Assembly (NCBI GenBank): GCA_002083775.1
Contig: MTEI01000011.1
Coordinates: 1-64,000 of the forward strand
Length of the DNA stretch: 64,000 nt
Source of the DNA: Rhodoferax ferrireducens
GTDB lineage: Bacteria; Pseudomonadota; Gammaproteobacteria; Burkholderiales; Burkholderiaceae_C
Direction: 5' to 3'
Shown piece by piece: positions 3,668 to 49,408 of the stretch. Both the position numbers and the translations under genes were made by a program. Below the pieces are notes generated by a model, which saw only the letters and a list, made by a program, of their open reading frames with translations, was not told where the DNA came from and did not search any database. Every line of letters begins with the position of its first letter. Position 1 is the first letter of the stretch.

Positions 3668-5316
3668 GCTTGAAACGCATCATCCTGCGCGACTTTGTCA
3701 TCGTCAGCGAGCTGGACCTGGAGCTTGCTGGCGGCTTTACCGTGCTGACCGGCGAAACCGGCGCAGGCAAATCCATTTTGGTGGATGCCTTGCAACTGGT
3801 GACCGGTGGACGGGCCGATGTGGCGCTGATTCGCGAGGGCGCTGCCCGCACCGATGTCAGCGCCGAGTTTGACGCCACGGCGGCGGTGGCTGCGTGGCTT
3901 GGAGAGGCTGGGTTTGAGCTGGACAGTTGTTTGCTATTGCGTCGCACCATCGACGCGCAAGGCAAAAGCCGCGCCTGGATCAATGGCAGCCCGGCCACCG
4001 CCACCCAGTTGCGTGCCCTGGGCGAACAACTGCTTGACATCCACGGGCAACACGCCTGGCAAAGCTTGACGCGGCCCGAGGCGGTTCGTGGCCTGCTGGA
4101 CGCCTATGCCAAGCTATCCACCGACAGCGTTTCGGCGCTGTGGCACGCCTGGCGCACGGCCCAAGACAAACTGGCCCAGGCACGTAGTTCGCAAGACTCT
4201 TTGCTCAATGAGCGCGAACGACTGACTTGGCAGATTGGCGAGTTGGAAAAACTGGCGCCAGCACCAGACGAATGGCCTACGCTCAACGCCGAGCACGCAC
4301 GACTTTCTAACGCCCAGGCGCTACTGGACGCTGCACAGGCAGCAATTCTGTTACTCGACGAAGACGAGCCCAGTGCCAGCAGCCAGGTTGGGAGCGCTTG
4401 CGAATCCCTACAAAAACAAGAGCACATCGAGCCCGTTTTCAAAGGGCTTAGCGAGGTTTTGGCATCAAGCCTGGCGCAGCTTGAAGATGCTGTGCACTCG
4501 CTGCGCGGTTACCTGCGCAAGACCGAGCTGGACCCTGACCGACTCAGCGCGCTGGACGAACGCATGGGCTTGTGGGTGTCGCTGGCGCGGCGTTACAAAC
4601 GCCGCCCCGAAGAGCTTGCCGATCTGCTGGCCGGCTGGAAGCAGCAGCTACTGGCCCTAGACGCCGCAGCCAACCTGCAGGCCCTGGAGTGCGCGCAGGA
4701 CGCTGCCTGGCAAGGCTACCAGCTGGAAGCTGGCAAGCTGACCCAAGCCCGAAAAATGGCAGCGCCCAAGCTGGCCCAGACCATCACCCAAGCAATGCAA
4801 GGGCTCGGCATGCAGGGCGGACAGTTTGAGGTGCAGATTCAGGCTGCGGCCCAGCCGTTGCAAACCGGGCTGGAAGAGACCAGCTTTCTGGTGGCCGGCC
4901 ACGCAGGCAGCACACCGCGCCCGGTGGGTAAAGTCGCCTCGGGCGGCGAGTTGTCGCGACTGGCTCTGGCCATTGCGGTTACCACCAGCCAGCTGGGAAC
5001 TGCCCAAACACTCATTTTTGATGAAGTGGACGCAGGTGTGGGGGGTGCTGTGGCAGAAACCGTTGGGCGACTGATGCGCCAACTGGGCATAGACCGGCAA
5101 GTGCTGGCCGTGACCCATCTGCCGCAAGTGGCGGCCTGCGCCGACTGGCATCTGGTGGTGAGCAAGCAGCTGGCGGGTACCTCTACCGTCAGCTCGGTGA
5201 CGCCAGTCAAGGGCGAAGAACGGGTGACCGAATTGGCACGCATGCTGGGCGGCGAGCGCATCCTGGCCAGCACCCTCACCCATGCGCGTGACATGCTGTT
5301 GCTGCAGGGAGCCTGA
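3664..5316 (+). CDS. recN: DNA repair protein RecN
   Basis: N-terminal Walker [16 protein letters not shown]-terminal [23 protein letters not shown]. Confidence 0.96.
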
Positions 5317-5317
5317 C

Positions 5318-6208
5318 ATGAACACCGCGCGGTTGGATGTGCAAATTGTGCTGATCACCGGCATGTCAGGCTCGGGCAAATCGGTTGCGCTGCATGCCCT
5401 GGAAGACTTGGGTTTTTACTGCGTGGACAATTTGCCACCCGAGCTGTTGATGCCGCTGGTAGACCTGGAGCATGCCCATCATGCCAAGCGCCTGGCGATC
5501 GCCATAGATGTGCGAAGCGCCAGCTCGTTGCCGCTGGTACCAGAGCAATTGCAACACCTCAAGTCATTGGGTTTTCAGGTGGACTGCGTTTTTCTGGATG
5601 CCACCACTGACACGCTGATCCGGCGTTTTTCCGAAACCCGCCGGCGCCACCCGCTTTCCCAGGGTGCACAAATGAGTGCCCTGCTGGACCAGCGCCACGT
5701 GCTGGCGGAAGCGATTGAACTGGAGCGCGACCTGCTTAGCGATCTGCGCATGCAGGCACATGTGATTGACTCCAGCATGATTCGTCCGACCCAATTGCAA
5801 AGCTATGTGAAAGCGTTTATCGAGGCGCCGGGTGAACAGCTGACTTTGGTGTTTGAGTCTTTTGCGTTCAAGCGCGGCATTCCCAGCGACGCAGACTTTG
5901 TGTTTGATGTGCGCATGCTGCCCAACCCGCATTACGAGCCCGAACTGCGGGCCCTCACCGGCCAGGACGCGCCGGTAGCCGATTTTTTAAGGCGGCAACC
6001 CGACGTGCAGCGCATGCTGGACCATATTCACGGTTTCCTGGACAGCTGGATGGACGATCTGGCCCAAAACCACCGCAGTTATGTGACCGTGGCCATTGGC
6101 TGCACCGGTGGGCAACACCGTTCGGTGTATTTGGTGGAGCAGCTCACCCAACTGTTCAAGGCGCGCTGGGTCACCCTGAAGCGCCACCGTGAAATGGACG
6201 CCCGCTAA
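5318..6208 (+). CDS. rapZ: RNase adapter protein RapZ
   Basis: [45 protein letters not shown]. Confidence 0.95.
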
Positions 6209-7251
6209 GCGCTCAGCAGTTTGCGGATGGGGGCGGGTAGACCCAACGCCACCCAGCGATTGGCAGCCATCCAATCCCCTGGCCCGACTGGTGCGCCACC
6301 CTCAGGCAATACCACGCGCACCGGATGTAAATACAGGTCTTTGTGTGTCAGCACATGCTTGATGACCGGCTGGTCATCCAAAGCGCCCTGCTGCCCCGCA
6401 GGCACCGCCGCCTGCAAACCGTCACGATCATCAAACAAAGGAAGGCAATACAAACCAGCCCAGACCCCGGGTGTGGGCCGCTGGCTCAACCAGACAGCGC
6501 CATTGGCAGACTGGGCCCAGAGCAGCCAGAGGGTTTGCGCCGTGCGTTTGAGTTTGCGCGTCTTGACCGGGAATTTGTCCGGATTGCCCAGCGCCTGTGC
6601 TTGGCATGGGCCAAGCAAGGGGCAGGCCTGGCAAGCTGGTTTTCTGACGGTGCAGACAGTGGCACCCAGGTCCATGATGGCTTGGGTGTAGCTTGGCATG
6701 GTGTTGGCCAGGTCATCTTTCGGCAGCAGCCGGGTAGCCTCATGCCACAAGAGGCGCTCGTTGGCAGCGCTGGCCAGGTCAGGCTCAAATGCCAGGTAAC
6801 GCGTCAGCACCCGTTTGACATTGCCGTCCAGAATCGCCACCCGCTCACCAAAACAGATGGCGGCCACTGCCGCTGCAGTGGAAGGCCCGATGCCCGGCAG
6901 AGTCTGGAGCTGTGCCGCAGTGCGCGGAAATACACCACCATGCAAAGCCATGACTTGTTGGGCGCAAAGGTGCAGGTTGCGCGCACGACTGTAGTAGCCC
7001 AGACCACTCCACAGGCCCAATACATCGTCCAAAGGCGCCTGCGCCAGCGCTGCCACATCGGGAAAACGCGTTAAAAACCTGGCAAAGTAGTCTCGCACGG
7101 TGACCACTTGGGTCTGCTGCAGCATGATCTCGGACAACCAGACGCGGTACGGTTCACGATGGGTCTGCCATGGCAGATCGTGCCGGCCATACGCCAGCTG
7201 CCAGCGCACCAGCGTGGGTGCGAAACCGTCTGCGCCGGGGTCAGGCCGCAT
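6205..7251 (-). CDS. mutY: A/G-specific adenine glycosylase MutY
   Basis: [31 protein letters not shown], 4Fe-4S cysteines [17 protein letters not shown]. Confidence 0.95.
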
Positions 7252-9196
7252 GCATGGCCAGCCCAAAGCGCGCGGGGGTGGTCATCTGCAGCAAAGAATC
7301 GGTCAACTCCACCAGCTTAAGCTCGGCCTGGTCCAGCTCAGTGCTGCGTGTGTTGATCTCGGCAATGCGTTCGTCCAGCCCGGTCGACGCCTGGGCAATG
7401 CGGTCGATGGCTTCGAGCCGACGCACGAAGTTCCTGCGGCGTTCTCGCAGCTGCGAGTCAAGCTGGGAGGCAGCAGACTTGCTCCAGGCCTCAATATCGC
7501 TCAACGCCGTTTCATTGACGGACCTCAAACGGGTGCTGAGGGCCCGCACCAGCCGGTCGGCAAACTCGGGCTGCGCCAGCCTGAACGCGTTGCCAATACC
7601 CAGGTACTGCACATGACTGCGCTCGATCAGGTCCAGATCGCTCAGATAGGGCTCAATCTGCGGTTCATCGGGGACCTGCAGCGAAAAACCATACTCGGTG
7701 TTGAGTTGCAAAAAGGTGGCCACCAGCATGGTGTGAATTTCCAGCCCCCTGGCGTGAACCTGGCGCAAATTGGCACGCAAACGCTCAAAAGTTTCACCAT
7801 ATGACCGCTTGATGCCGAGCTTGAAGCCTTTTTGCTTGAGCGCTGCTGTGAGATGCACCATCTCGTCCTTCAGCGCTTGCGGCCCCAGCAAGGCAAAGAT
7901 ATCGCGCATCAGCTTCATGTGTACCGAGCGCACGGCATGAATCTTCACACCCGCCGCATCAAACTCCGCCTGCTCCTGCGCCACCCGGGCACGCATATTT
8001 TTGATGACGGGCTTGTTTTTGCCTTGCAGGCCTTTGAGTTCCAGCAATTGCTCGGTCAGATCCCGACGGCGTACCTGCACAAAACGCCCTGTCTCACCGC
8101 GCAGTGCCGAAATACCCCGCGCCACCGCCGTGCCCAGAATTTTTTGCCGCCGCCCCATGATGTCCTTGCTCAACGCGTCTTCGAGCTTTTCCAGGCAACT
8201 GCGTTTCAACAGTGCTGCATCATTTTTAACCTTGCCAACCAGCCCCTTCTGTGCAGAAACAGCCACCACCTGGTCTTCCGGAATGCCCAAAATCTCGGCA
8301 GAACTGCGTTTTTGCTGATCAATTTGGGCCTGTACCTCCTGCGGGCTGTCCAGTGCGTCCCACAAGGTGTCGATCTTGTTCAAGACTACCAGGCGCGTCG
8401 ACAGGTCTTGCCCGTCTTCAACCAGATGCTCACGCCAGATGGACAAATCTGATTGGGTCACCCCGGTATCGGCTCCCAGGATAAACACCACCGCCTGCGC
8501 TTGCGGGATCAGGCTGACTGTCAGCTCAGGTTCAGCGCCAATGGCATTCAGGCCAGGGGTATCCAGAATGACCAAGCCCTGCTTGAGCAGCGGGTGGGCA
8601 ATGTTGATCAACGCATGCCGCCATTTGGGTACTTCAAGCAGGCCGTTGGCGTCGGGGGCGGGGTTGTTGCCGCTGGACTGGCTGTGCCAGAAACCCAGGG
8701 CGCGGGCCTCTTCCTGCGTGACTCGCCGCGTTTCAGCCACCTTGGCAAAGGCTTCGGACAACTGTTTGGGGTTGCTGACCTCCAGGTCGAAGCGTTCCCA
8801 CTTTTCTGGCACCATGCGCCATTCCATGAGGGACTGGGGCTGCAGGCGGGTTTCGATGGGCAGCAGGCGCAGGCAGGGCGGCACCTCGCCATCGAAACCC
8901 ATCTCGGTCGGGCACATGGTGGTGCGCCCAGCGCTGGCCGGCATGATGCGTCGCCCATAGCCAGCAAAAAAGATGGCATTGATCAGCTCCGACTTGCCGC
9001 GTGAAAACTCGGCCACAAAAGCCACCATCACCTTGTCGACGCGCACCTGGGCTTCAAGCCGGTGCAACCGATCCTCCACGGAGGCGTCTAGCAGATCCTG
9101 CTCCTGCAGCCATTGCGACAACAGCTTCAGCCGCAGTGCAAACTCACGCCGCCAGGCACCGTGCTGGTCGAATTTTTCGTTGAATGAAGTTCCCAA
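7241..9196 (-). CDS. Dynamin-family GTPase
   Basis: P-loop FSRGKSELINAIF, TTMCPTE, LVILDTPGLNAIG, NKID; probable TTG start at 9196 preceded by GGAGG. Confidence 0.85.
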   Translation of the reverse strand: MGTSFNEKFDQHGAWRREFALRLKLLSQWLQEQDLLDASVEDRLHRLEAQVRVDKVMVAFVAEFSRGKSELINAIFFAGYGRRIMPASAGRTTMCPTEMGFDGEVPPCLRLLPIETRLQPQSLMEWRMVPEKWERFDLEVSNPKQLSEAFAKVAETRRVTQEEARALGFWHSQSSGNNPAPDANGLLEVPKWRHALINIAHPLLKQGLVILDTPGLNAIGAEPELTVSLIPQAQAVVFILGADTGVTQSDLSIWREHLVEDGQDLSTRLVVLNKIDTLWDALDSPQEVQAQIDQQKRSSAEILGIPEDQVVAVSAQKGLVGKVKNDAALLKRSCLEKLEDALSKDIMGRRQKILGTAVARGISALRGETGRFVQVRRRDLTEQLLELKGLQGKNKPVIKNMRARVAQEQAEFDAAGVKIHAVRSVHMKLMRDIFALLGPQALKDEMVHLTAALKQKGFKLGIKRSYGETFERLRANLRQVHARGLEIHTMLVATFLQLNTEYGFSLQVPDEPQIEPYLSDLDLIERSHVQYLGIGNAFRLAQPEFADRLVRALSTRLRSVNETALSDIEAWSKSAASQLDSQLRERRRNFVRRLEAIDRIAQASTGLDERIAEINTRSTELDQAELKLVELTDSLLQMTTPARFGLAMHAA

Positions 9197-9263
9197 TCTG
9201 CCTCCAAAACGTGAGCCTTCAAGCAATATAGCACCCTTGCAAACGCCTTCCGCGAAAGGCTTT

Positions 9264-10079
9264 TCAGGGTTTTTGACAAACCGGGCAGTAAAACGTGGAG
9301 CGTTGGCCTTGTCGGATCGTCCTGATGGTGGCGCCGCATTGGCTGCACGGCTGACCGGCACGACCATACACCCGTGCTTCGAGCTGAAAATACCCGGTTT
9401 GCCCGTGCGCATTGGAAAAATCCCGCAAGGTGCTCCCCCCTTGCTCCACCGCGCGGGCCAGCACATCACGTATGGCCGCGTGCAGGCGTGCCACCCGCGG
9501 CCGACTCAGCTTGTTGGCCCGGCAGGTAGGCCTAATGCCAGCCAGAAACAACGCCTCCGAGGCATAGATATTGCCTACGCCCACCACCAGATCACCCGCC
9601 ATCAACACTTGTTTGATGCTTGTTTTGCGTTGTTTGAGCCCCTGGGCAAACTTTGTCGGATCAAAGTCTTCCGAGAGCGGCTCCATACCCAGACGCCCTA
9701 ACAGCTTCAGGGCCGCAGGAGAATCAAGACTGTCTACATAAACCACTGCGCCAAAACGCCGTGGGTCGTTCAAGCGCAGCGTGCCTTGACTGGTGCACAA
9801 GTCAAAATGATCGTGCGGCCCCGGCGCGGTCAGGTCGCGGGCAAACCGCAAGCTGCCTGACATGCCCAGATGCACCACCAGCCAGCCTTGGCTCAAAGCC
9901 ATCAGCAAATATTTGCCACGCCTGCCAACAGTGCGAACGGTGCGCCCGAGCAGTTCATCTGGCGGGCAGCCCAATGGCCAGCGTAGCGGCTTGCCCAAAC
10001 GCAGTGCGGTGATCCGGGCACCCTCAATGGCGTCAACAAAACTGCGCCGGGTGACTTCAACTTCAGGTAATTCAGGCAT
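9264..10079 (-). CDS. mutM: Formamidopyrimidine-DNA glycosylase MutM
   Basis: [13 protein letters not shown]-terminus and C-terminal zinc finger [25 protein letters not shown]. Confidence 0.96.
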
Positions 10080-40290: not shown

Positions 40291-40365
40291 CTCGCTGTAG
40301 TTCAATGGATAGAACGAGTGCCTCCTAAGTGCTAGATACAGGTTCGATTCCTGTCAGCGGGACCA
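40291..40365 (+). tRNA. tRNA-Arg(CCU)
   Basis: CTCGCTGTAGTTCAATGG...AGTGC-CTCCTAA-GTGCT...ACAGGTTCGATTCCTGT CAGCGGGACCA; anticodon CCT. Confidence 0.9.
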
Positions 40366-40479: not shown

Positions 40480-40672
40480 GGGGGCACATTCGGGGGCACG
40501 TTTTCAGAAAATGGGGGCATAAGTTCGAAAGGTGCCCCGTGGGCGGGTCGGTTTAGCAGGTTCCCCCAGTGCTGCGCTTGGTGCGCTCTCACTGGCCAGG
40601 GTGTGATTCATTGAGGAATATGCGCAAAAATGCCCCCAAATCAAGGGGCATTCGCTGCAAATTCTGGGGGCA
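40480..40672. repeat. GGGGGCA repeats, left end of element (40480, 40492, 40513, 40631 reverse, 40666)
   Basis: Five exact copies read directly. Confidence 0.8.
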
Positions 40673-41176
40673 CTTTTGCCAGTTTTCGCAGCAACTGCCC
40701 CTTTTAACCCCCCGGGGGTAGTTTTGCTTTTCCATAAAAATCAGGTTAAGCGGTCGGTTTCCGGGGTGGGTTCGCCAGACTTTTGACCCGCCCCCACCCC
40801 ACCAGCCAACGGGCGAACCCCTCCCCCCTGCCCATTACGCGGCGTTGCGAGAAAGAATAAGCGGTCGGTCTAGGGGTTGCATCGTCCAGACTTTTTACCA
40901 CCCCCCGCCCGCCAGCACGCGGGCCGGATCATGGGCACGCTGGCCACCAGCTCACGCCAGGCGGTGCGCAGCGCGTCGAGGTGGTGACACGGTGCAGGCA
41001 TGTGCCACGGCACGCTGGGTCGGGTGGGTGTTGCACTTGGTGAGCTCACACTGTGGGCATCAGTGCCATGCTGCCAGGCGGTCACGGTGCTGGCGCTGCC
41101 CACCAACACCCAGCCGCCGGGCTGGTTTGGCCGGGCTTCGGGCTTGTCTTTCATCGGGGTATCGACAAAAAAAACT

Positions 41177-41289
41177 GGGGGCACTGGGGGCAACTGTGGA
41201 TAACAACCCTAACCCATTGATTCGATTGATGAATTCTGCCCCCAAAATAACTGGGGGCAGATCGTTTCAAACTGGGGGCACTGGGGGCA
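41177..41289. repeat. GGGGGCA iterons with DnaA box TGTGGATAA (41195-41203); candidate replication origin
   Basis: Copies at 41177, 41186, 41237 (reverse), 41253, 41274, 41283; TGTGGATAA is the reverse complement of TTATCCACA. Confidence 0.65.
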
Positions 41290-41438
41290 GTCGGTGCCGG
41301 GAACGTCCGGTAACGTCCGGCGGTCTGTTCGCTTGGTGCTTGGTGCCTGCTTTGCAGCAGGTTTTGCAGCGCGGAGAAAGCTCACCCGCCCGCCCCCTTC
41401 GGGCGGCCCGACACACGCTCACGCCGTGGGTTTGCGGG

Positions 41439-44372
41439 TCACAGATCAAGCTCAAAAATGGCAGGGGTCACCCGGTAGCACCACGAATTGCCCAAGCCAG
41501 GTAGGCGGGCTTTGCAGTCGAACGCCCGGCCCTTGTCGGGTGCCAGGCAGCCATGATCCAACAGCACCCGACTAACCGTTTTGTGGTCGAAGCCTTGGCA
41601 CACTTCGCCTCGGAAGCTCTCAGCCAGGATGAAATATTCAAAGCTCACGCCTTCACCCAGTGCCGGGGGCATCCGTTCGCCATACTCCCGCTGGTGGTCG
41701 CTGTCGGTTTTGATGGGGTTACCGTCTGCATCCAACATGCGACGCACTCCCGCCCGCTGCAAAGTTTTGGGGGCGTGGTCGTCGCTGCCCCGGTGCCACA
41801 TTGCGAAGCGGCCTTCACCGTGGGTTTCCAGAAAGCGGCGAACCTGTCGCAACATGGCCACCACCTCACCGTTTCCGCTGCCACCCCGGGCCGCCAGCCA
41901 CGATTCAAAGCAGACACGGGCGGCCCGCTCACTCTCACCCGCTGGCCAGCCTGTCAGCCCCGCCGCCGTGGCCAGTTCACCCGCTGCCCCCACCAGCGCA
42001 AAACGTGCCCCCACCCGTTCCACTTGCCCGCTGGCATTGGCTGGCATCATGGCCGCCGCCAGGGCGTTGGATGCGGTGCGAATGCTGGCCTTGAGGGTGT
42101 CGGCATGTTCCACCAGCCATTGCAGCCAAGCGCGGCCCGTGGCACCGTACACGCTTTGGGCGTGCCCCGTGATGTGCTTGGCAAAAGCAGCGCCGCCCGC
42201 CAGGCCGTGCAATTGCTCGAACGCACCCAGCCCAGCGCCTGCATCCGCCGCCAGGTCAACCATTCGCACCTCTTGCCCCACACGGGTTCGCTTCTGGCCT
42301 TCTGCCATATGGTCAGCCAGCCCCAGTTCACCAGCGGACAAAAACAGCAGCCGCCATGCCTGCCGGGCGCGGGGTGAACCTGTACGGGTTGCACGGGCCT
42401 TGCCTTGTTCGTTTGCCAGCATGTAGGCGCATTCGCCAGCCGTTTTGGGGTCGATCTGTGCCAATTCATCCAAGATCAACAGGCCGTCGCAGTGTTGGGC
42501 CGCAATGGCTTCAAGGGCGTTGTCCGTTGCCCGCCAGCGTTGCAGGTAGTTGGCACCGCCGTACACGCTGGCAGCCAGTTTAAGGGCCGTAGTCTTGCCG
42601 CTGGAACTGTCCCCCCGGTAGTGAAACCCGCCGGATTCCATACCCGCCGGGCGTAACAGCGGCCCGGCAAAAGCACTGGCCACAGCAAACACCAGCCGGG
42701 AATTGCCGACACACAGCGCCCCCACCCGGTCGCGCCATTGGTCGGGCGTGCCTTTGGTCTTGAAGGTGTTTTCAATCGGGGCATCAGACTGGAAAACAAT
42801 CCGCTCTGCATCCGTGCCACTGGTGACAGTTTCACGGGGCAGCACAAAGGCGGTGCCATGCCAGCCGATACGGTCGGTGCAACTGGCGAACTCAGCCGGG
42901 GCACGGGTTTGGATGTATTGGGTCAGCAGGTTACGGGCGCGGGGTGTGGTGGCAATGCGCAGCCCCATGTTTAACAGCGTGGCGCGGTATTCACCACCAT
43001 CGGCGGACAACATACGGGCGGGCATTGCCCATTGCTTCAAGGTTCCAAGCGGGTCATTGAACGCCACGTAATAGCCCCAGCCGCCGCCGTCCTGATCACG
43101 GGTCAGGGCTTGCACGTCCAAACGGCTGCACACCCATTCGGGCGGCTTGCGTTTGCCGTCCTGATCAGCACCACAGAACCACACGCCCGCATCGTCAACG
43201 GTGAACGGATCAAACATGCGCTCAGGATCATCCGGGGCAGCGCCGGGGGCAGCATTCGCCCCGCTGGGCTGGCGCGGCTTGGACTTGGCACCGTTGCCAG
43301 GCGCGGGCGCGGTCGTTGACTGGGTGGGCGTTTTGGCTTGTTGCTGGGGTGGTTCGTAATAGTCAATCGCCTGGTTTATGGGCGTGGCCACCGCGTCATA
43401 TCCGCAAAGCTGGTGCAGGTCGTTGAAGTCGGAACCGTCAGCCGGGAGCGGGTCGGGGAATTCTGGGAACAGCGCCAGCCCAGCCACCGCACGGGCCGCC
43501 GCCGTGGCCTTGTCGCGGCCCGGGTTGTGGCCAGTGCGAGCGTGGGTGTCGCGGTCGTCGTCGCCACAGATCACGATCAGCGCCGCCGGGTGTGCCTGGT
43601 GCACAGATTTGGCCACGTGCAACAAATTGCCCGCGTCAAAAGCCACAGCGCAGGGGCGGCCCGTGCATTCGTGCAGACTAGCCGCCGTGGCGTACCCCTC
43701 GCAGATCAGCAGCGCAGCGGCCCCGGTCGGATCACCGCACCAGTGAAACAGCCCGGCCTTGCGGCCCCCTTTCAAAAACAATTTGTCGGTGCCACCGCCA
43801 GCCGGGCGGGTGGGTGCAATGCGTTGCAGGTTCCACAACTTGCCCGCCGTGTCACGCAAGGGCACCAACACCCAGCCATCAGGCGCAAAGCGCACGCCGT
43901 AGGGCTGCACGCCCTTGCGGGTCAGGTAGGCGCTTTCGCCTGTTTCGCTGGCGGCCTGCCACAGTAACGCGGCTTCACTGGCTGCGCGTTCGTGGGCGGC
44001 TTGTCGCTGGGCAGCGTCAGCCTGTTGGCTGGCGGCCCGCTCGCTGGCCAGGCGTGCCACCGTTGCGGGGTCGGGCTGGGCTGGCGCTTGGTCGGGCTTG
44101 GGCAGGTTGAAGCCGTTTTGTTTTGCCATGAAAAGCAGCGTTCCAACAGTCACGCCGCCGCCCGGTTTGAGGCTTTTCCAAGTGTCGCGCAATGACTTTG
44201 CGTTGTAGTTTTCAGCGGTGCAGCTCCACGATTCAGCCAGATCAAACCCGGTTGCATCGTCGAATTCGCTTTTGATAGCTGCCAGCACTTTTGCCCATTC
44301 GTCACGGCTGACATTGGGCGGGATGAACCGCAAAGCGGATTCAATCAGGGGGGCGGTAATGGGTGTTTTCAT
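41439..44372 (-). CDS. Primase-helicase-like protein (PriCT-2-like N-terminus, TOPRIM, DUF927 helicase)
   Basis: RFIPPNVSRDEWAKVLAAIKSEF; LLICEGYATAASLHE, VICGDDDRD; FHYRGDSSSGKTTALKLAASVYG, LLILDELAQIDP. Confidence 0.88.
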   Translation of the reverse strand: MKTPITAPLIESALRFIPPNVSRDEWAKVLAAIKSEFDDATGFDLAESWSCTAENYNAKSLRDTWKSLKPGGGVTVGTLLFMAKQNGFNLPKPDQAPAQPDPATVARLASERAASQQADAAQRQAAHERAASEAALLWQAASETGESAYLTRKGVQPYGVRFAPDGWVLVPLRDTAGKLWNLQRIAPTRPAGGGTDKLFLKGGRKAGLFHWCGDPTGAAALLICEGYATAASLHECTGRPCAVAFDAGNLLHVAKSVHQAHPAALIVICGDDDRDTHARTGHNPGRDKATAAARAVAGLALFPEFPDPLPADGSDFNDLHQLCGYDAVATPINQAIDYYEPPQQQAKTPTQSTTAPAPGNGAKSKPRQPSGANAAPGAAPDDPERMFDPFTVDDAGVWFCGADQDGKRKPPEWVCSRLDVQALTRDQDGGGWGYYVAFNDPLGTLKQWAMPARMLSADGGEYRATLLNMGLRIATTPRARNLLTQYIQTRAPAEFASCTDRIGWHGTAFVLPRETVTSGTDAERIVFQSDAPIENTFKTKGTPDQWRDRVGALCVGNSRLVFAVASAFAGPLLRPAGMESGGFHYRGDSSSGKTTALKLAASVYGGANYLQRWRATDNALEAIAAQHCDGLLILDELAQIDPKTAGECAYMLANEQGKARATRTGSPRARQAWRLLFLSAGELGLADHMAEGQKRTRVGQEVRMVDLAADAGAGLGAFEQLHGLAGGAAFAKHITGHAQSVYGATGRAWLQWLVEHADTLKASIRTASNALAAAMMPANASGQVERVGARFALVGAAGELATAAGLTGWPAGESERAARVCFESWLAARGGSGNGEVVAMLRQVRRFLETHGEGRFAMWHRGSDDHAPKTLQRAGVRRMLDADGNPIKTDSDHQREYGERMPPALGEGVSFEYFILAESFRGEVCQGFDHKTVSRVLLDHGCLAPDKGRAFDCKARLPGLGNSWCYRVTPAIFELDL

Positions 44373-44644
44373 GGGGTGGGGAATAGGTCGGGCTGGGCTG
44401 TCGGGCGGTGTGTGAGTCGATACGTGCGCACCTCTCGCGTGCGGTTGCCACCAGCACACGACACGCGCCGCCAGTCTTTGCGCAGGCCGTACCCCAGGCC
44501 GTGCATGTCCGAAAGGACTTTTGTGATGCAGCCCGTATCGCACGCCGCGTCGATCTGCTTTGCGGTGCTGTCGGGGTGCAGTTCCAGATAGTCAGCCACC
44601 CGGGCCGCTTGGGCCGGGCGGTTGTCGGGGTGCCGGTTGTGCAT
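44369..44644 (-). CDS. Hypothetical protein, winged-helix-like
   Basis: ATGA overlap with the primase gene; VADYLELHPDSTAKQIDAACDTGCITKVLSDM. Confidence 0.55.
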   Translation of the reverse strand: MHNRHPDNRPAQAARVADYLELHPDSTAKQIDAACDTGCITKVLSDMHGLGYGLRKDWRRVSCAGGNRTREVRTYRLTHRPTAQPDLFPTP

Positions 44645-44654
44645 AGCGGCCCCT

Positions 44655-44930
44655 TCAAAGGGTGCCGGGCATGGGGGGCAGAAAACCAGCCTTCAAAACT
44701 TCGGGCTGCCCAGGTTCCGACACTGCCAAAACGGTGCCCGTGTCTGGGTCAATCACCGCCAGCACACCGGGCCATTCCAGCCGCACAAAAACCGAAGCGC
44801 TGCCCTTGCCCATGCGCCGCTGGAACAGCGGATTTTTGATGTTGAACGCGGTGAAGTTTGCAGCCCGTTTGAGGTGGTTTTCAGCCGATTTCAAGGCTTG
44901 GGCTTTGAGGTATTCGGGGCCAAAATTCAT
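44655..44930 (-). CDS. Hypothetical protein
   Basis: Collinear ORF overlapping the AlpA gene by 4 bp. Confidence 0.5.
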   Translation of the reverse strand: MNFGPEYLKAQALKSAENHLKRAANFTAFNIKNPLFQRRMGKGSASVFVRLEWPGVLAVIDPDTGTVLAVSEPGQPEVLKAGFLPPMPGTL

Positions 44931-45157
44931 GATTGATCCCCCGCCGCTGCAATGCGTTCTCTGATCCAACGATTAATGGAAGATTCAGGCCAGCACACTG
45001 CCCGGCGGCTCAATTTCAAGGGGCGCGGGAAAGCTGGCGGGGTGCGGTTCAGCATCTCATAAATTGCTGACTTTTGAAGCCCGACACGTGCCACCACAGC
45101 GGGTAGGCGTAATAGGGTTTCGGGTGCTGGCGTAGGGGTGTTTGCTTGGGTTTTCAT
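44927..45157 (-). CDS. AlpA-family regulator/excisionase-like
   Basis: LLRLPAVVARVGLQKSAIYEMLNRTPPAFPRPLKLSRRAVCWPESSINRWIRERI. Confidence 0.88.
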   Translation of the reverse strand: MKTQANTPTPAPETLLRLPAVVARVGLQKSAIYEMLNRTPPAFPRPLKLSRRAVCWPESSINRWIRERIAAAGDQS

Positions 45158-45207
45158 GGGTTTCCTAAAGTTGGAAACCCGATTTCATGCGGTGCGATCT
45201 TTGGTGG

Positions 45208-45846
45208 CTACGCTTTGCGCCGTTTCTCTAAAAACTGTGCAAGGGGTTGCTTTTCGCGTTTGTGTAAGTGTTCGGCCTGGTTTTCATCAATCCGCGTAAC
45301 CAGTTCGCGGGCTTTGCGCTTTTTGACGCCCCACTTTTTCAACGCTAGAACGCTATCAAGCACCATATCAAGGCTATTTGCATCAGTATGGTCTAAAGCA
45401 TATCGCCAGCATTCGCCCCAAAGCTGCACACCAAGCGCCCAATCTTGCCTTGCAGCAGCCGCCTTTGTTGGGGTATTGGTTGGTAAGCTGGCGCTACTAA
45501 AAACAAGATCCAATGAATGCGCCCCGCCAGGCTGCAAAAAGCCAGTCATAGCCTTTGAAAATGCCACAGCAAGCCAGCTTGGCATAGGTAGATTTTCATC
45601 GGCGCAAAGCTGAATCGCTTGCAATAGTGCTAGCGTATCGCCAGCCTCGAAACGCTCACGCCACACACCCAAAGCGGCCTTCATATCTGCCAGCGACCGA
45701 CAGTTAACAATCCCCTTTTTGTGACCGTAACGAATACCTGTCCGCAACCCAAGCGCTAACTTAGCCCAGCCACTATCAAGGATGTTCAGTTCTTTTTCGT
45801 CGTCGTTGTAGCGGCGATTTGGATCATCGCCAAAATACGGGATCAT
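45208..45846 (-). CDS. Hypothetical protein of the element
   Basis: ORF MIPYFGDDPNRRYNDDEKEL...; no family recognised. Confidence 0.5.
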   Translation of the reverse strand: MIPYFGDDPNRRYNDDEKELNILDSGWAKLALGLRTGIRYGHKKGIVNCRSLADMKAALGVWRERFEAGDTLALLQAIQLCADENLPMPSWLAVAFSKAMTGFLQPGGAHSLDLVFSSASLPTNTPTKAAAARQDWALGVQLWGECWRYALDHTDANSLDMVLDSVLALKKWGVKKRKARELVTRIDENQAEHLHKREKQPLAQFLEKRRKA

Positions 45847-45960
45847 CGCCACCCCTTCAGGTGCAGCCTTCAAAGGGTGCCAGCGCCAGGCGGGTGAAGG
45901 ACTCCCGCTTTTCGCCCGTGGGGATCAGCCGTGGGCTAGGCGTGGCAAAACGCTTGCGGG

Positions 45961-46170
45961 TCAGTCCCCCGCCGGGTGCCCCGCCGCCTTCAGGGCCGCG
46001 TGCAATTCGCGGCGAACGGTGTTCCAGTCTGGCACCGTGCCGAATTCGTCCGGGTTCACTTTGGTCTGGGCAAAAACGATGGTTGCGTGTGCGGTCAAAA
46101 CGGCTTGCAGCAGCTTTTGTGCCGCTTCGGGTGTGTCGTAGTTGGGGGCATAGCGCCAGGCTTCAGGCAT
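45961..46170 (-). CDS. Small hypothetical protein
   Basis: Collinear ORF MPEAWRYAPNYDTPEAAQKLL... Confidence 0.4.
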   Translation of the reverse strand: MPEAWRYAPNYDTPEAAQKLLQAVLTAHATIVFAQTKVNPDEFGTVPDWNTVRRELHAALKAAGHPAGD

Positions 46171-46206
46171 TGGGTTTTCCTTGGGTTGCGGGTGTGCGGT
46201 TCATTG

Positions 46207-46770
46207 TCACATCAGGCCACGTTCTGCCATGCTCAGGGCGTCACCCGGGGCAACAATGACATGATCCAACACCCTGACATCAATCAGCGCCAGCGTGGTT
46301 TTGAGGGTTTGCGTCAATTGTTCGTCCGCCCGGCTGGGATGAACTGTGCCGCTGGGGTGGTTGTGCGCCAGCACCACAGCGGACGCCCCTAGATTGATAG
46401 CCAGGTGCACCACTTCACGGGGGTAAACGCTGGTTTGTGTCAGGGTTCCAATGAACATGGTGTGAAAGCAGATCAGGCGGTTTTGCACGTCAAGGAACAA
46501 CACCGCAAAGCGCTCTGCATGTTCGCCCGCCAGTTGCAATTGAAGGTACGTTTTCACCGCGTCGGGCGTTTCAAACACGGTTCGCCCTTGGGTCAGGCAG
46601 CGCCCCACGATGGCCAGCGCCTTGTCTATGGCGTTGCGTTCGCGTACCTTCAGCCCGTGCCGGAATGACAGAACGCCATCGCCCGCCCCATAGGCTGCAA
46701 CGCAGTCGCTTACCTTGTGGGATGCCCGCCGGGGCGTGCGTGGTGTTGGTGTAGAGTTCACAGCAGCCAT
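46207..46770 (-). CDS. RadC-like JAB/MPN domain protein
   Basis: VVLAHNHPSGTVHPSRADEQLT with intact HxH...D metal-binding motif; SD before 46770. Confidence 0.9.
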   Translation of the reverse strand: MAAVNSTPTPRTPRRASHKVSDCVAAYGAGDGVLSFRHGLKVRERNAIDKALAIVGRCLTQGRTVFETPDAVKTYLQLQLAGEHAERFAVLFLDVQNRLICFHTMFIGTLTQTSVYPREVVHLAINLGASAVVLAHNHPSGTVHPSRADEQLTQTLKTTLALIDVRVLDHVIVAPGDALSMAERGLM

Positions 46771-46848
46771 TTTCAATCCTCCAGTGATTGTTGGTGGTCA
46801 GGCGGGGCGGGTGCTCGCAACACCCGCCCCGCCGCCTTTTTGCCCCGG

Positions 46849-47121
46849 TCAAATCGCGCCGGGGCTTCGCGTTGAATCAGTCGCTGGCGCTGCGCTGGGT
46901 TTGCTCAAATACTTGTCACGCAACGCCGCCAAATCCAGCAGAGTTTCAAGCCAGGCACCAGCCCACGGGGGCGGGGGTGCAAAGCCTGTTGCCCAGCGGT
47001 TTACCGTCTGGCGGGTTAACCCGGCACGGTCTGCAAAATCTGCCTGTTGCCAGCCTAGCCTCTCAAGTGCATTCCTGAATTGTTCGGCGCTCATACTGGG
47101 GTAAGTGGTGGGGCGTTTCAT
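46849..47121 (-). CDS. Helix-turn-helix regulator (Cro/XRE-like)
   Basis: FRNALERLGWQQADFADRAGLTRQTVNRWATG. Confidence 0.8.
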   Translation of the reverse strand: MKRPTTYPSMSAEQFRNALERLGWQQADFADRAGLTRQTVNRWATGFAPPPPWAGAWLETLLDLAALRDKYLSKPSAAPATDSTRSPGAI

Positions 47122-47260
47122 GTTTTTATTCTAGTCTTCAAATTTACTTAGAGTTCATAAATAGCTGTTTTTGTTAACTCTATGCGGTTCGATTCTCGGG
47201 CAGGAACCGCGTTGAGTGTCTAAGTGGTTGATTCAAATAGACATTTTCAAAACCACAAAA

Positions 47261-47332
47261 AAAAGTACCGTCAAAAGTACCGTCAAAAACAAATGTGTCG
47301 TTTTTTGACGTGTGAACCATTACTCGGTAATG
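47261..47332. promoter_or_regulatory. Candidate operator region: tandem AAAAGTACCGTC x2, IR GTCAAAAAC...GTTTTTTGAC, palindrome CATTACTCGGTAATG
   Basis: Read directly; upstream of the HTH gene. Confidence 0.5.
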
Positions 47333-47364
47333 CGCAAGCGGTTGAAGCCTTGCGCCTGGTGTGC

Positions 47365-47691
47365 TCATGTTGGGGGCATCCGTGCCACGGTGCCGGGGCT
47401 TCGCGGTAACGGTATTTTGTAACGCTCACATAATTCATTGATGATCAGCCCCGCCAGCTCACGGGTTACGGGCGCATGGTCGGGGTCTGGCGTGGCCAGC
47501 GCCTTGAATTGACGCACCAGCGCAGCCACCAGCACCGCCGGGGGCGCATCCTTCAGGTTTTCATGCGCAGCGCTGGCGGCTTCGCGCCGTCGCATCCGGT
47601 AGGCAGCCGCCCGCATGGTGTCGGGCATCGCGTGGCCATATTTGGCCGGGCGGCCCGGTTTGCCTTTGGGGGTGTCGGTGGGTGTTGGCAT
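47365..47691 (-). CDS. Hypothetical protein
   Basis: ORF MPTPTDTPKGKPGRPAKYGHAMPDTMRAAAYRMRRREAA... Confidence 0.55.
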   Translation of the reverse strand: MPTPTDTPKGKPGRPAKYGHAMPDTMRAAAYRMRRREAASAAHENLKDAPPAVLVAALVRQFKALATPDPDHAPVTRELAGLIINELCERYKIPLPRSPGTVARMPPT

Positions 47692-47707
47692 GGTGTAGTT
47701 TTATTTT

Positions 47708-47742
47708 GTGACTGTCACGTAATTATGATTCGTGATGATCAC
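47708..47742. promoter_or_regulatory. Two palindromes GTGACTGTCAC and GTGATGATCAC upstream of the 47365-47691 gene
   Basis: Read directly. Confidence 0.5.
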
Positions 47743-47924
47743 AAAAACAAGTATTCATGAAAAATCGCGGCCCGGGGGCTGGTTCCAAGGGAATGCCCTT
47801 CGCGCTCAAATCCTCTACCGTTCGCAAACACCCGGCAAAGTGCGCAGCGGGCCGGGCCGGGCTGGGTGCTGGGCAGGGGGTCAAAGGGATAGAGAATGTT
47901 TGAATCATCTTCATCATTTAAGAC

Positions 47925-48028
47925 TGCCCCCACTTTGCCCCCAGTCTGCCCCCACATTGCCCCCACTGCCCAAACAGCCGCTAACCCGCATGGTTGCTGG
48001 GTTTCGCCCGTTTGCCCCCACTGCCCCC
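47925..48028. repeat. TGCCCCC iteron array: four copies at exact 11-bp spacing (47925, 47936, 47947, 47958) plus 48013 and 48022
   Basis: TGCCCCCACTT TGCCCCCAGTC TGCCCCCACAT TGCCCCCACTG. Confidence 0.85.
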
Positions 48029-48083
48029 ACGTTTTCAGCTGGTAGCAGCCTGGAAATGTGGCAGAACGTGCCGGGCGTGGGCA

Positions 48084-49289
48084 TCAGGCGGCCCGCTTTT
48101 TCATTTTCAGCACCTTGCCCGTTTTGCGTCCGTCTAGGTAGTCCGCCCACCACTGCATCAATTTGGCGCGGTCTTCAAGGTAGGTTGAACGGTGGTAAGC
48201 AGCTCGCACGCCGTTGCGTTCAACGTGGGCAAGCTGGCGCTCGATAGCGTCGGGGTTCCAGTTGCATTCATTGGCCACCGTGGAAAACAGCGCCCGGAAA
48301 CCGTGGGCCGTCGCGCTGCCCTTGAAGCCCATGCGTGCCAGGGCGCTATTGAAGGTGTTTTCGCTCAGTGGTTTGCTGGGATAGAACGGGCTGGGAAACA
48401 CCAGCTCACGGTCACCACTCAGGGTTTTCATGGTGCGCAGCACTTCAAGCGCCTGCCGTGACAGTGGCACGCGGTGTTCAAGTTTCATCTTCATCCGGGC
48501 CGCCGGGATGATCCACAACGCCGCGTCAAGGTCAAACTCTGCCCACAGTGCCCCGCGTGTTTCGCCGGGCCGGGTTGCGGTCAGCATCAGCAGCCGCAAA
48601 GCGTTCACCGTGTGGGGGTCGCCGTCATAGGCTGCCAGTTTGGCCAGGAATGCGGGCAGGTCGCTATCTGCCAGGGCGGGGCGGTGTGTCACGTGCCGGG
48701 GTTTGAGAATCTCGGACGGCACCAGATCGACCATCGGGTTTGATTCGATGCGCTCATGAGTCACGGCCCAACGGTAAACAGCCTTGACTCGCTTCAGCAC
48801 CCGGTCGGCTTGGTCGGCTGCCCCGCGTGCCTCTACCTTTTTGACCGCCGCCATGATTTCGCCGGGCTTGATACTGGCAAGGGGCCGCGCCCCCAGCGTC
48901 GGGAAAATGTCCGCCTCAAGGGATGCGCGAATGCGGGCAAGTGTCACGGGTGCCCAGCGTGCGGTCTGGTGCTTCAGCCAGTCACGCGCCACCGCTTCAA
49001 GGGTGTTTACGGTTTCCTGCACTACCTTGGCTTTTTCGGCTTTGCGCAATGCGCCGGGGTCGTTGCCAGCCTTCAAGGTTTTGCGGGCGGTGTTTGCCAG
49101 GTCGCGGGCGGTCTTGAGGCTTACCATGGGGTACACGCCCAACGCCAGGCGCTTTTCTTTGCCGCCGTGCCGGTACTTCAAGCGCCAGTAGCGTCCGCCC
49201 GCCGGGGTCAGTTCCAGATAAAGCCCACCGCCGTCGAAGTGTTTGCCGGGTTCGGTCAGGTTGCGAAGCTGGGCATCAGTCAGGGGCAT
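48084..49289 (-). CDS. Tyrosine recombinase/integrase (P4-type, N-terminal DUF4102)
   Basis: LTDAQLRNL..GGGLYLELTPAGGRYWRLKYRHGGKEKRLALGVYP; catalytic TRPGETRGALW...TAHGFRALFST. Confidence 0.94.
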   Translation of the reverse strand: MPLTDAQLRNLTEPGKHFDGGGLYLELTPAGGRYWRLKYRHGGKEKRLALGVYPMVSLKTARDLANTARKTLKAGNDPGALRKAEKAKVVQETVNTLEAVARDWLKHQTARWAPVTLARIRASLEADIFPTLGARPLASIKPGEIMAAVKKVEARGAADQADRVLKRVKAVYRWAVTHERIESNPMVDLVPSEILKPRHVTHRPALADSDLPAFLAKLAAYDGDPHTVNALRLLMLTATRPGETRGALWAEFDLDAALWIIPAARMKMKLEHRVPLSRQALEVLRTMKTLSGDRELVFPSPFYPSKPLSENTFNSALARMGFKGSATAHGFRALFSTVANECNWNPDAIERQLAHVERNGVRAAYHRSTYLEDRAKLMQWWADYLDGRKTGKVLKMKKRAA

Positions 49290-49408
49290 GGTGGGTATCC
49301 TTTGCAATTTGGGGGCACATATGGGGGCACATTCTGCCACCGTGCGACAAATCACTAGGTTTTTCAATCACTTACAGCGGAATTTTGATTCCTGTCAGCG
49401 GACCACAT

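Follow-up and report, generated by a model that had tools for sequence, protein, structure and literature searches.

An array of short GGGGGCA repeats beside a primase-helicase gene of Rhodoferax ferrireducens raises the question of whether it serves as a replication origin or as a set of sites for another protein. The array lies in the window, i.e., the whole stretch of 64,000 nucleotides that was analysed, within a mobile element of ~9.04 kb integrated at a tRNA-Arg gene; this gene and a direct repeat form the borders of the element (Table 1). The element genes, all on the minus strand, encode a P4-type integrase, an HTH regulator, RadC, AlpA, small ORFs, and a PriCT_2-Toprim_3-DUF927 primase-helicase, and the genes flanking the element on the outside are TamB and PEPCK. 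Close relatives occur in Rhodoferax and other Comamonadaceae. Comparison of the element's ORFs with PHROGs recognised no capsid, terminase, or packaging family. An empty site with joined flanks was sought and not recovered; within the genus, conservation of the left flank extends as far as tRNA-Arg, and no relative spans both flanks. Comparison of sequences and predicted structures suggests, with a probability of roughly 0.86, that 41174–41289 is the replication-origin iteron array of this element, and its reading as a rep-ori of PICI/SaPI/P4 type is well supported.

Table 1. Features of the element and its borders (positions in the window; functional assignments of repeats are putative)
Feature	Position	Strand	Remarks
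tRNA-Arg(CCT), integration target	40291–40365	+	
att direct repeat copy GATTCCTGTCAGCGG	40346–40360	+	3′ end of tRNA-Arg
Candidate integrase arm-type site pair, tRNA side	40480–40498	+	12-bp spacing; motif and spacing match annotated P4 attP arm repeats
Three more GGGGGCA	40513–40672		40513 (+), 40631 (−), 40666 (+); between arm sites and origin array
Main iteron array, P4 crr-like / PICI ori-like	41174–41289	−	six ACTGGGGGCA-type iterons, spacing kept in relatives
AT-rich core between the two iteron sets, candidate melting site	41193–41236		61% AT vs 40% for the element
Exact DnaA box TTATCCACA	41195–41203	−	adjoins the 2-iteron set; same position in L032, L033, L035, L036, L037, L039
Primase-helicase (PriCT_2, Toprim_3, DUF927; Pfam), 977 aa	41439–44372	−	ATG at 44372; C-terminal winged helix predicted
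AlpA-family regulator / excisionase	44927–45157	−	PF05930, 7e-13
RadC-like JAB protein	46207–46776	−	
HTH (XRE-type) regulator	46849–47121	−	
Second iteron array, 3′ of integrase	47925–48029	+	four TGGGGGCA at 11-bp spacing and a 9-bp doublet; spacer AACCCAGCAnnCATGCGGGTT
P4-type tyrosine integrase (Arm-DNA-bind_3, Phage_int_M, Phage_integrase)	48084–49367	−	44% identical to P4 Int
Candidate integrase arm-type site pair, integrase side	49311–49329	+	12-bp spacing; pair at 49311/49323
att direct repeat copy, far end	49387–49401	+	

The iteron array and its setting

A preliminary description of this DNA had proposed six copies of GGGGGCA, five direct and one inverted, in ~113 bp, with repeat spacings of 9 bp (twice) and 21 bp. 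This count is exact: direct copies start at 41177, 41186, 41253, 41274, and 41283, the inverted one at 41237, and the spacings are as described. Read on the primase strand, the array consists of TGCCCCC iterons spaced 9-21-16(inverted)-51-9. Six copies in 113 bp are far beyond chance, since 200 simulations of a 9-kb element, first-order Markov like all chance simulations in this work, never gave more than three. The motif TGGGGGCA is overrepresented in the window as a whole (22 occurrences vs 6.5 expected), nearly all of it within 40512–49329. Outside the main array it clusters at 40480–40672 by the tRNA-Arg att site, at 47925–48029 on the 3′ side of the integrase gene, and at 49311–49329 at the 5′ end of that gene. 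The primase gene itself contains GGGGGCA at 41985 and at 42006, probably as a coincidence of its coding sequence; the closest relative, L029, lacks a matching pair. A blastn search for plasmid relatives with the 161-bp array gave no meaningful match.

The remaining structural claims of the preliminary description also hold. The perfect DnaA box, TGTGGATAA at 41195–41203, is the sole exact one within the 64-kb window. The stretch between the repeats is indeed AT-richer than the element (Table 1), and 3% of all 44-bp segments across the element reach this AT content. The array lies directly downstream of the primase-helicase gene, whose product is of the self-loading type, at a distance of 150 bp on the 3′ side of the gene, and ~0.8 kb from att.

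Conservation of layout and divergence of iterons

Relatives were surveyed with a layout scan that was blind to sequence and considered only the 9-21-16(inverted)-51-9 spacing, on both strands of 1.1 Mb. The layout was found in 18 loci in addition to the window, each time on the primase strand and 3′ of the primase; one of the 18, L045, is the window's own copy. Simulated sequence (1.0 Mb) yielded no match. More loci with the same layout came from viral contigs (L133, L135) and from genome searches (L085, L087, L139). A second spacing class, composed of a doublet, an inverted copy, and a 9-bp triplet, is present in L018, L022, L024, L025, L027, L028, L034, and L038. In at least 20 loci, in differing element and integrase contexts, homologous primases share the array architecture on their 3′ side, the 9-21-16-51-9 spacing being nearly invariant across 20 loci; the loci compared are partly related to one another. 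More distant DUF927 initiators also have arrays of 9-bp doublets 3′ of their gene, and no array was found within 1.5 kb of the distant homologues L050, L051, L053, L054, L056, and L058.

The sequence of the iterons is far more variable than their arrangement. Among the relatives TGCCCCC, TGTCCCC, TGTCCCA, TGTCCGC, TGTCGCA, TGCCCTC, TGGCCCC, TGTTCCC, and TGTTCAC occur, as well as TTCCC forms. The preliminary description had held that an origin should have its iterons conserved in homologous elements; this is borne out for the architecture, whereas the iteron sequence varies and the DnaA box is present in 7 of the 21 arrays examined of the 9-21-16-51-9 class and absent from the 14 others. In L021, L023, L026, and L040 the arrays are mixed, with a first iteron TGCCCCC and the others TGTCCCC, as if caught in mid-switch. 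L039 combines a divergent helicase core with a C-terminus close to that of the window, and its iteron is unchanged.

Several relatives have peculiarities of their own. The reading frames of the primase genes in L027 (9001–11931) and L038 (9001–11882) are interrupted by an in-frame stop or a frameshift, and a part of the copies may therefore be decayed. In L032, L033, L035, L036, and L037 the query matches the C-terminal ~60% of the primase only, and the N-terminal primase part seems to be replaced or missing. The element of Rhodoferax sp. BLA1 (L029) encodes, between AlpA and the primase (6533–8668), a 711-aa protein resembling a tail tape-measure protein (PHROG matches to 2.6e-17, no Pfam match); such a gene is unusual in a satellite-sized element. 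One of the more distant DUF927 initiators, likewise with an array of 9-bp doublets 3′ of its gene, is encoded by 448 of the 5426 complete E. coli genomes, in an island with a P2-type capsid gene. In E. coli SA186 (L215, initiator gene at 4637–9639) the island lies by dsdC and tRNA-Arg and encodes a P2-family major capsid protein and an ogr/Delta-like protein.

The initiator and its predicted wing

Searched against the PDB, a profile of the primases matches SaPIbov1 Rep (8tch, 2.5e-23) and SCCmec Cch (5dgk, 6.5e-14). The profile of the C-terminus alone gave only a chance match there, for which reason a fold search was used for this region. The predicted structure of its 238 residues (pLDDT 86) shows a winged helix after a helical bundle; the first-ranking Foldseek matches are again SaPIbov1 Rep and SCCmec Cch.

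Within the wing motif RLPGxG-N962-SWCYR, asparagine at position 962 is shared without exception by the 11 loci that have TGC iterons and is missing from each of the 29 that have TGT or TGG, and it is the sole perfect separator of these groups among the 238 columns. The residue was first spotted by eye on an initial set and was then tested on other, partly related loci. The correlation held outside the spotting set in L032, L033, L035, L036, L037, L023, L027, L038, and L040, and later in L091 and a dozen others. L043 and L142 have N at the wing, and no array was found in these two. On the tree, wing residue and iteron type change seven times each. Only four tree-independent pairs lie on supported branches, all of them concordant (sign test p = 0.125), and the link between N962 and the iteron is for this reason a strong lead, short of proof.

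The second array

The layout of the second array, 3′ of the integrase, recurs in L018, L025, L027, L028, L029, L034, and L038. The agreement of its iterons with those of the origin array in the same locus exceeds chance (permutation p = 0.0035) and is complete or almost complete in the window, L027, L028, L029, and L034. A full concerted switch of both arrays was nonetheless rejected, as the two are mismatched in four of the nine loci (L018, L024, L025, L038). By analogy, 47925–48029 may be the counterpart of P4 ori1. The spacer (47974–48002) contains a near-palindrome, AACCCAGCAnnCATGCGGGTT, conserved in L018, L025, L029, L034, and L038; the origin arrays of class 2 in L018, L024, and L046 have a very similar motif in their spacer, and some integrase genes have one upstream.

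Origin, integrase sites, or operator

The att ends of the element bear GGGGGCA as well. In phage P4 the annotated attP arm repeats are GGGGGCA at 12-bp spacing, and the pairs at 40480/40492 and 49311/49323 place the same motif, equally spaced, on both sides of att; they are best read as integrase arm sites that share a 7-mer with the origin. Given this match, the array could in principle also consist of integrase sites, and all GGGGGCA copies, those of 41174–41289 included, would then be arm-type or accessory sites of the P4-type integrase. A literature search on GGGGGCA with integrase found nothing relevant. P4 points the other way, since its arm repeats are followed by a separate crr whose iterons differ from them in sequence. 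For the array itself such a role is very unlikely: its pairs are spaced by 9 rather than 12 bp, it is remote from att, and it forms no 12-bp pair conserved with the integrase. On the basis of the relatives, the arm-site reading was rejected for 41174–41289. GGGGGCA arms are common to the window, L018, L027, L028, and L034, yet the origin iterons of these five loci are of four kinds, and the arms of L024, L025, and L038 are GGGGTACA. Conversely, L029, whose element apparently sits in a tmRNA gene, combines a different integrase and GGGGAACA arms with a TGCCCCC array, and many TGCCCCC arrays occur in loci without a detected P4-type integrase. Because the integrase arms vary independently of the array across relatives, the array belongs to the primase.

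This association also bears on the idea that the array is an operator for AlpA or the HTH regulator and no replication site. Iteron-like repeats can be operators and the element encodes both regulators, but the array is situated on the 3′ side of the primase gene rather than ahead of a regulator gene, it accompanies the primase gene in varied surroundings, and its sequence changes along with a primase residue; an operator is, if anything, even less probable than a set of integrase sites. A DnaA-dependent iteron plasmid origin was rejected in view of the patchy occurrence of the DnaA box and of an initiator that is of Toprim/DUF927 type, not of RepA/TrfA type. A finer question, internal to the origin reading, is whether 41174–41289 might be an initiator-bound accessory region required in cis, like P4 crr, with synthesis starting elsewhere, for example at 47925–48029. 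P4 has crr at this position and its annotated origin at another, and conservation of the second array on the 3′ side of the integrase extends to L029 with its different integrase. The region 3′ of rep in PICIs and SaPIs, however, is itself the origin (PMC6092414), and second-array iterons match the first array in only ~5 of 9 loci, so that a purely accessory role seems possible though rather doubtful.

Proposed mechanism and implications

In the origin reading, the C-terminal winged helix of the primase would bind the iterons, and the wing around N962 probably reads their third position (TGC vs TGT). Two helicase assemblies might load on the two iteron sets and melt the AT-rich core, and after excision the fused Toprim domain would prime synthesis. 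The second array probably acts together with the first, as do P4 crr and ori1. The preliminary description had taken the origin to be recognised by the element's own primase-helicase. In favour of this, the layout tracks the primase and the iteron switches with the predicted wing residue; two qualifications apply, in that the DnaA box is optional and that the GGGGGCA copies at the att ends fit integrase arms and so are not part of the origin.

More generally, DUF927 initiators and their origins may evolve by iteron switching on a fixed architecture, according to a short wing code in which N962 specifies C at iteron position 3. In the present element the initiator iteron would have converged on the integrase arm motif, so that the two proteins could share sites or compete for them, coupling excision to replication. 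This proposal is tentative. If the wing code is true, origin specificity could be read from protein sequence. The residues by which a given DUF927 initiator tells its own origin from others are, to our knowledge, not known; with a single architecture, a variety of iteron sequences, and a wing residue in perfect correlation, the present set of loci makes initiator–origin specificity directly testable. Satellites and islands that encode such initiators are common, and the case illustrates how to distinguish an origin from integrase arm sites that resemble it.

Comparison with known systems

The element shares with phage P4 the order int-att-arm sites-repeat region-initiator, a P4-type integrase with the same arm motif, 9-bp iteron doublets in direct and inverted orientation, and a second iteron array elsewhere. 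P4 crr corresponds in position to the present array; according to its annotation, replication requires it in cis, and an exact DnaA box lies beside it too. Its doublet sequence differs. P4 iterons are GGTGAACA-like, and crr comprises two 120-bp repeats. Whereas arm and origin motifs differ in P4, those of the present element share a 7-mer. The C-terminus of the alpha protein is Pox_D5 (PF03288), in contrast to the DUF927 initiator found here. Although the int-att-crr-alpha order and the integrase are those of a P4-like satellite, the element falls outside the P4 family proper because its initiator lacks the alpha-type C-terminus.

SCCmec Cch is likewise a DUF927 helicase and, among solved folds, the closest to the C-terminal region. 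The C-terminal domain of Cch2 binds its putative origin, and that of SaPI Rep recognises iterons just downstream of its gene (PMC7581432). Unlike the present element, the Cch/Cch2 systems are staphylococcal, with a separate primase, other recombinases, and different iterons. In PICIs the origin directly follows rep on its 3′ side and has an AT-rich region enclosed by two sets of iterons; the EcCICFT073 origin is functional (PMC6092414). The present element differs from PICIs and SaPIs in its fused primase-helicase, in the linked second array by the integrase, and in having no recognised capsid, terminase, or packaging gene. To the extent that sequence can tell, it resembles SaPIbov1 and EcCICFT073 in the features of their rep-ori: iterons of element-specific sequence directly 3′ of the initiator gene, two sets of them flanking an AT-rich core, and a homologous helicase of Rep/Cch type (8tch) with a predicted C-terminal DNA-binding domain.
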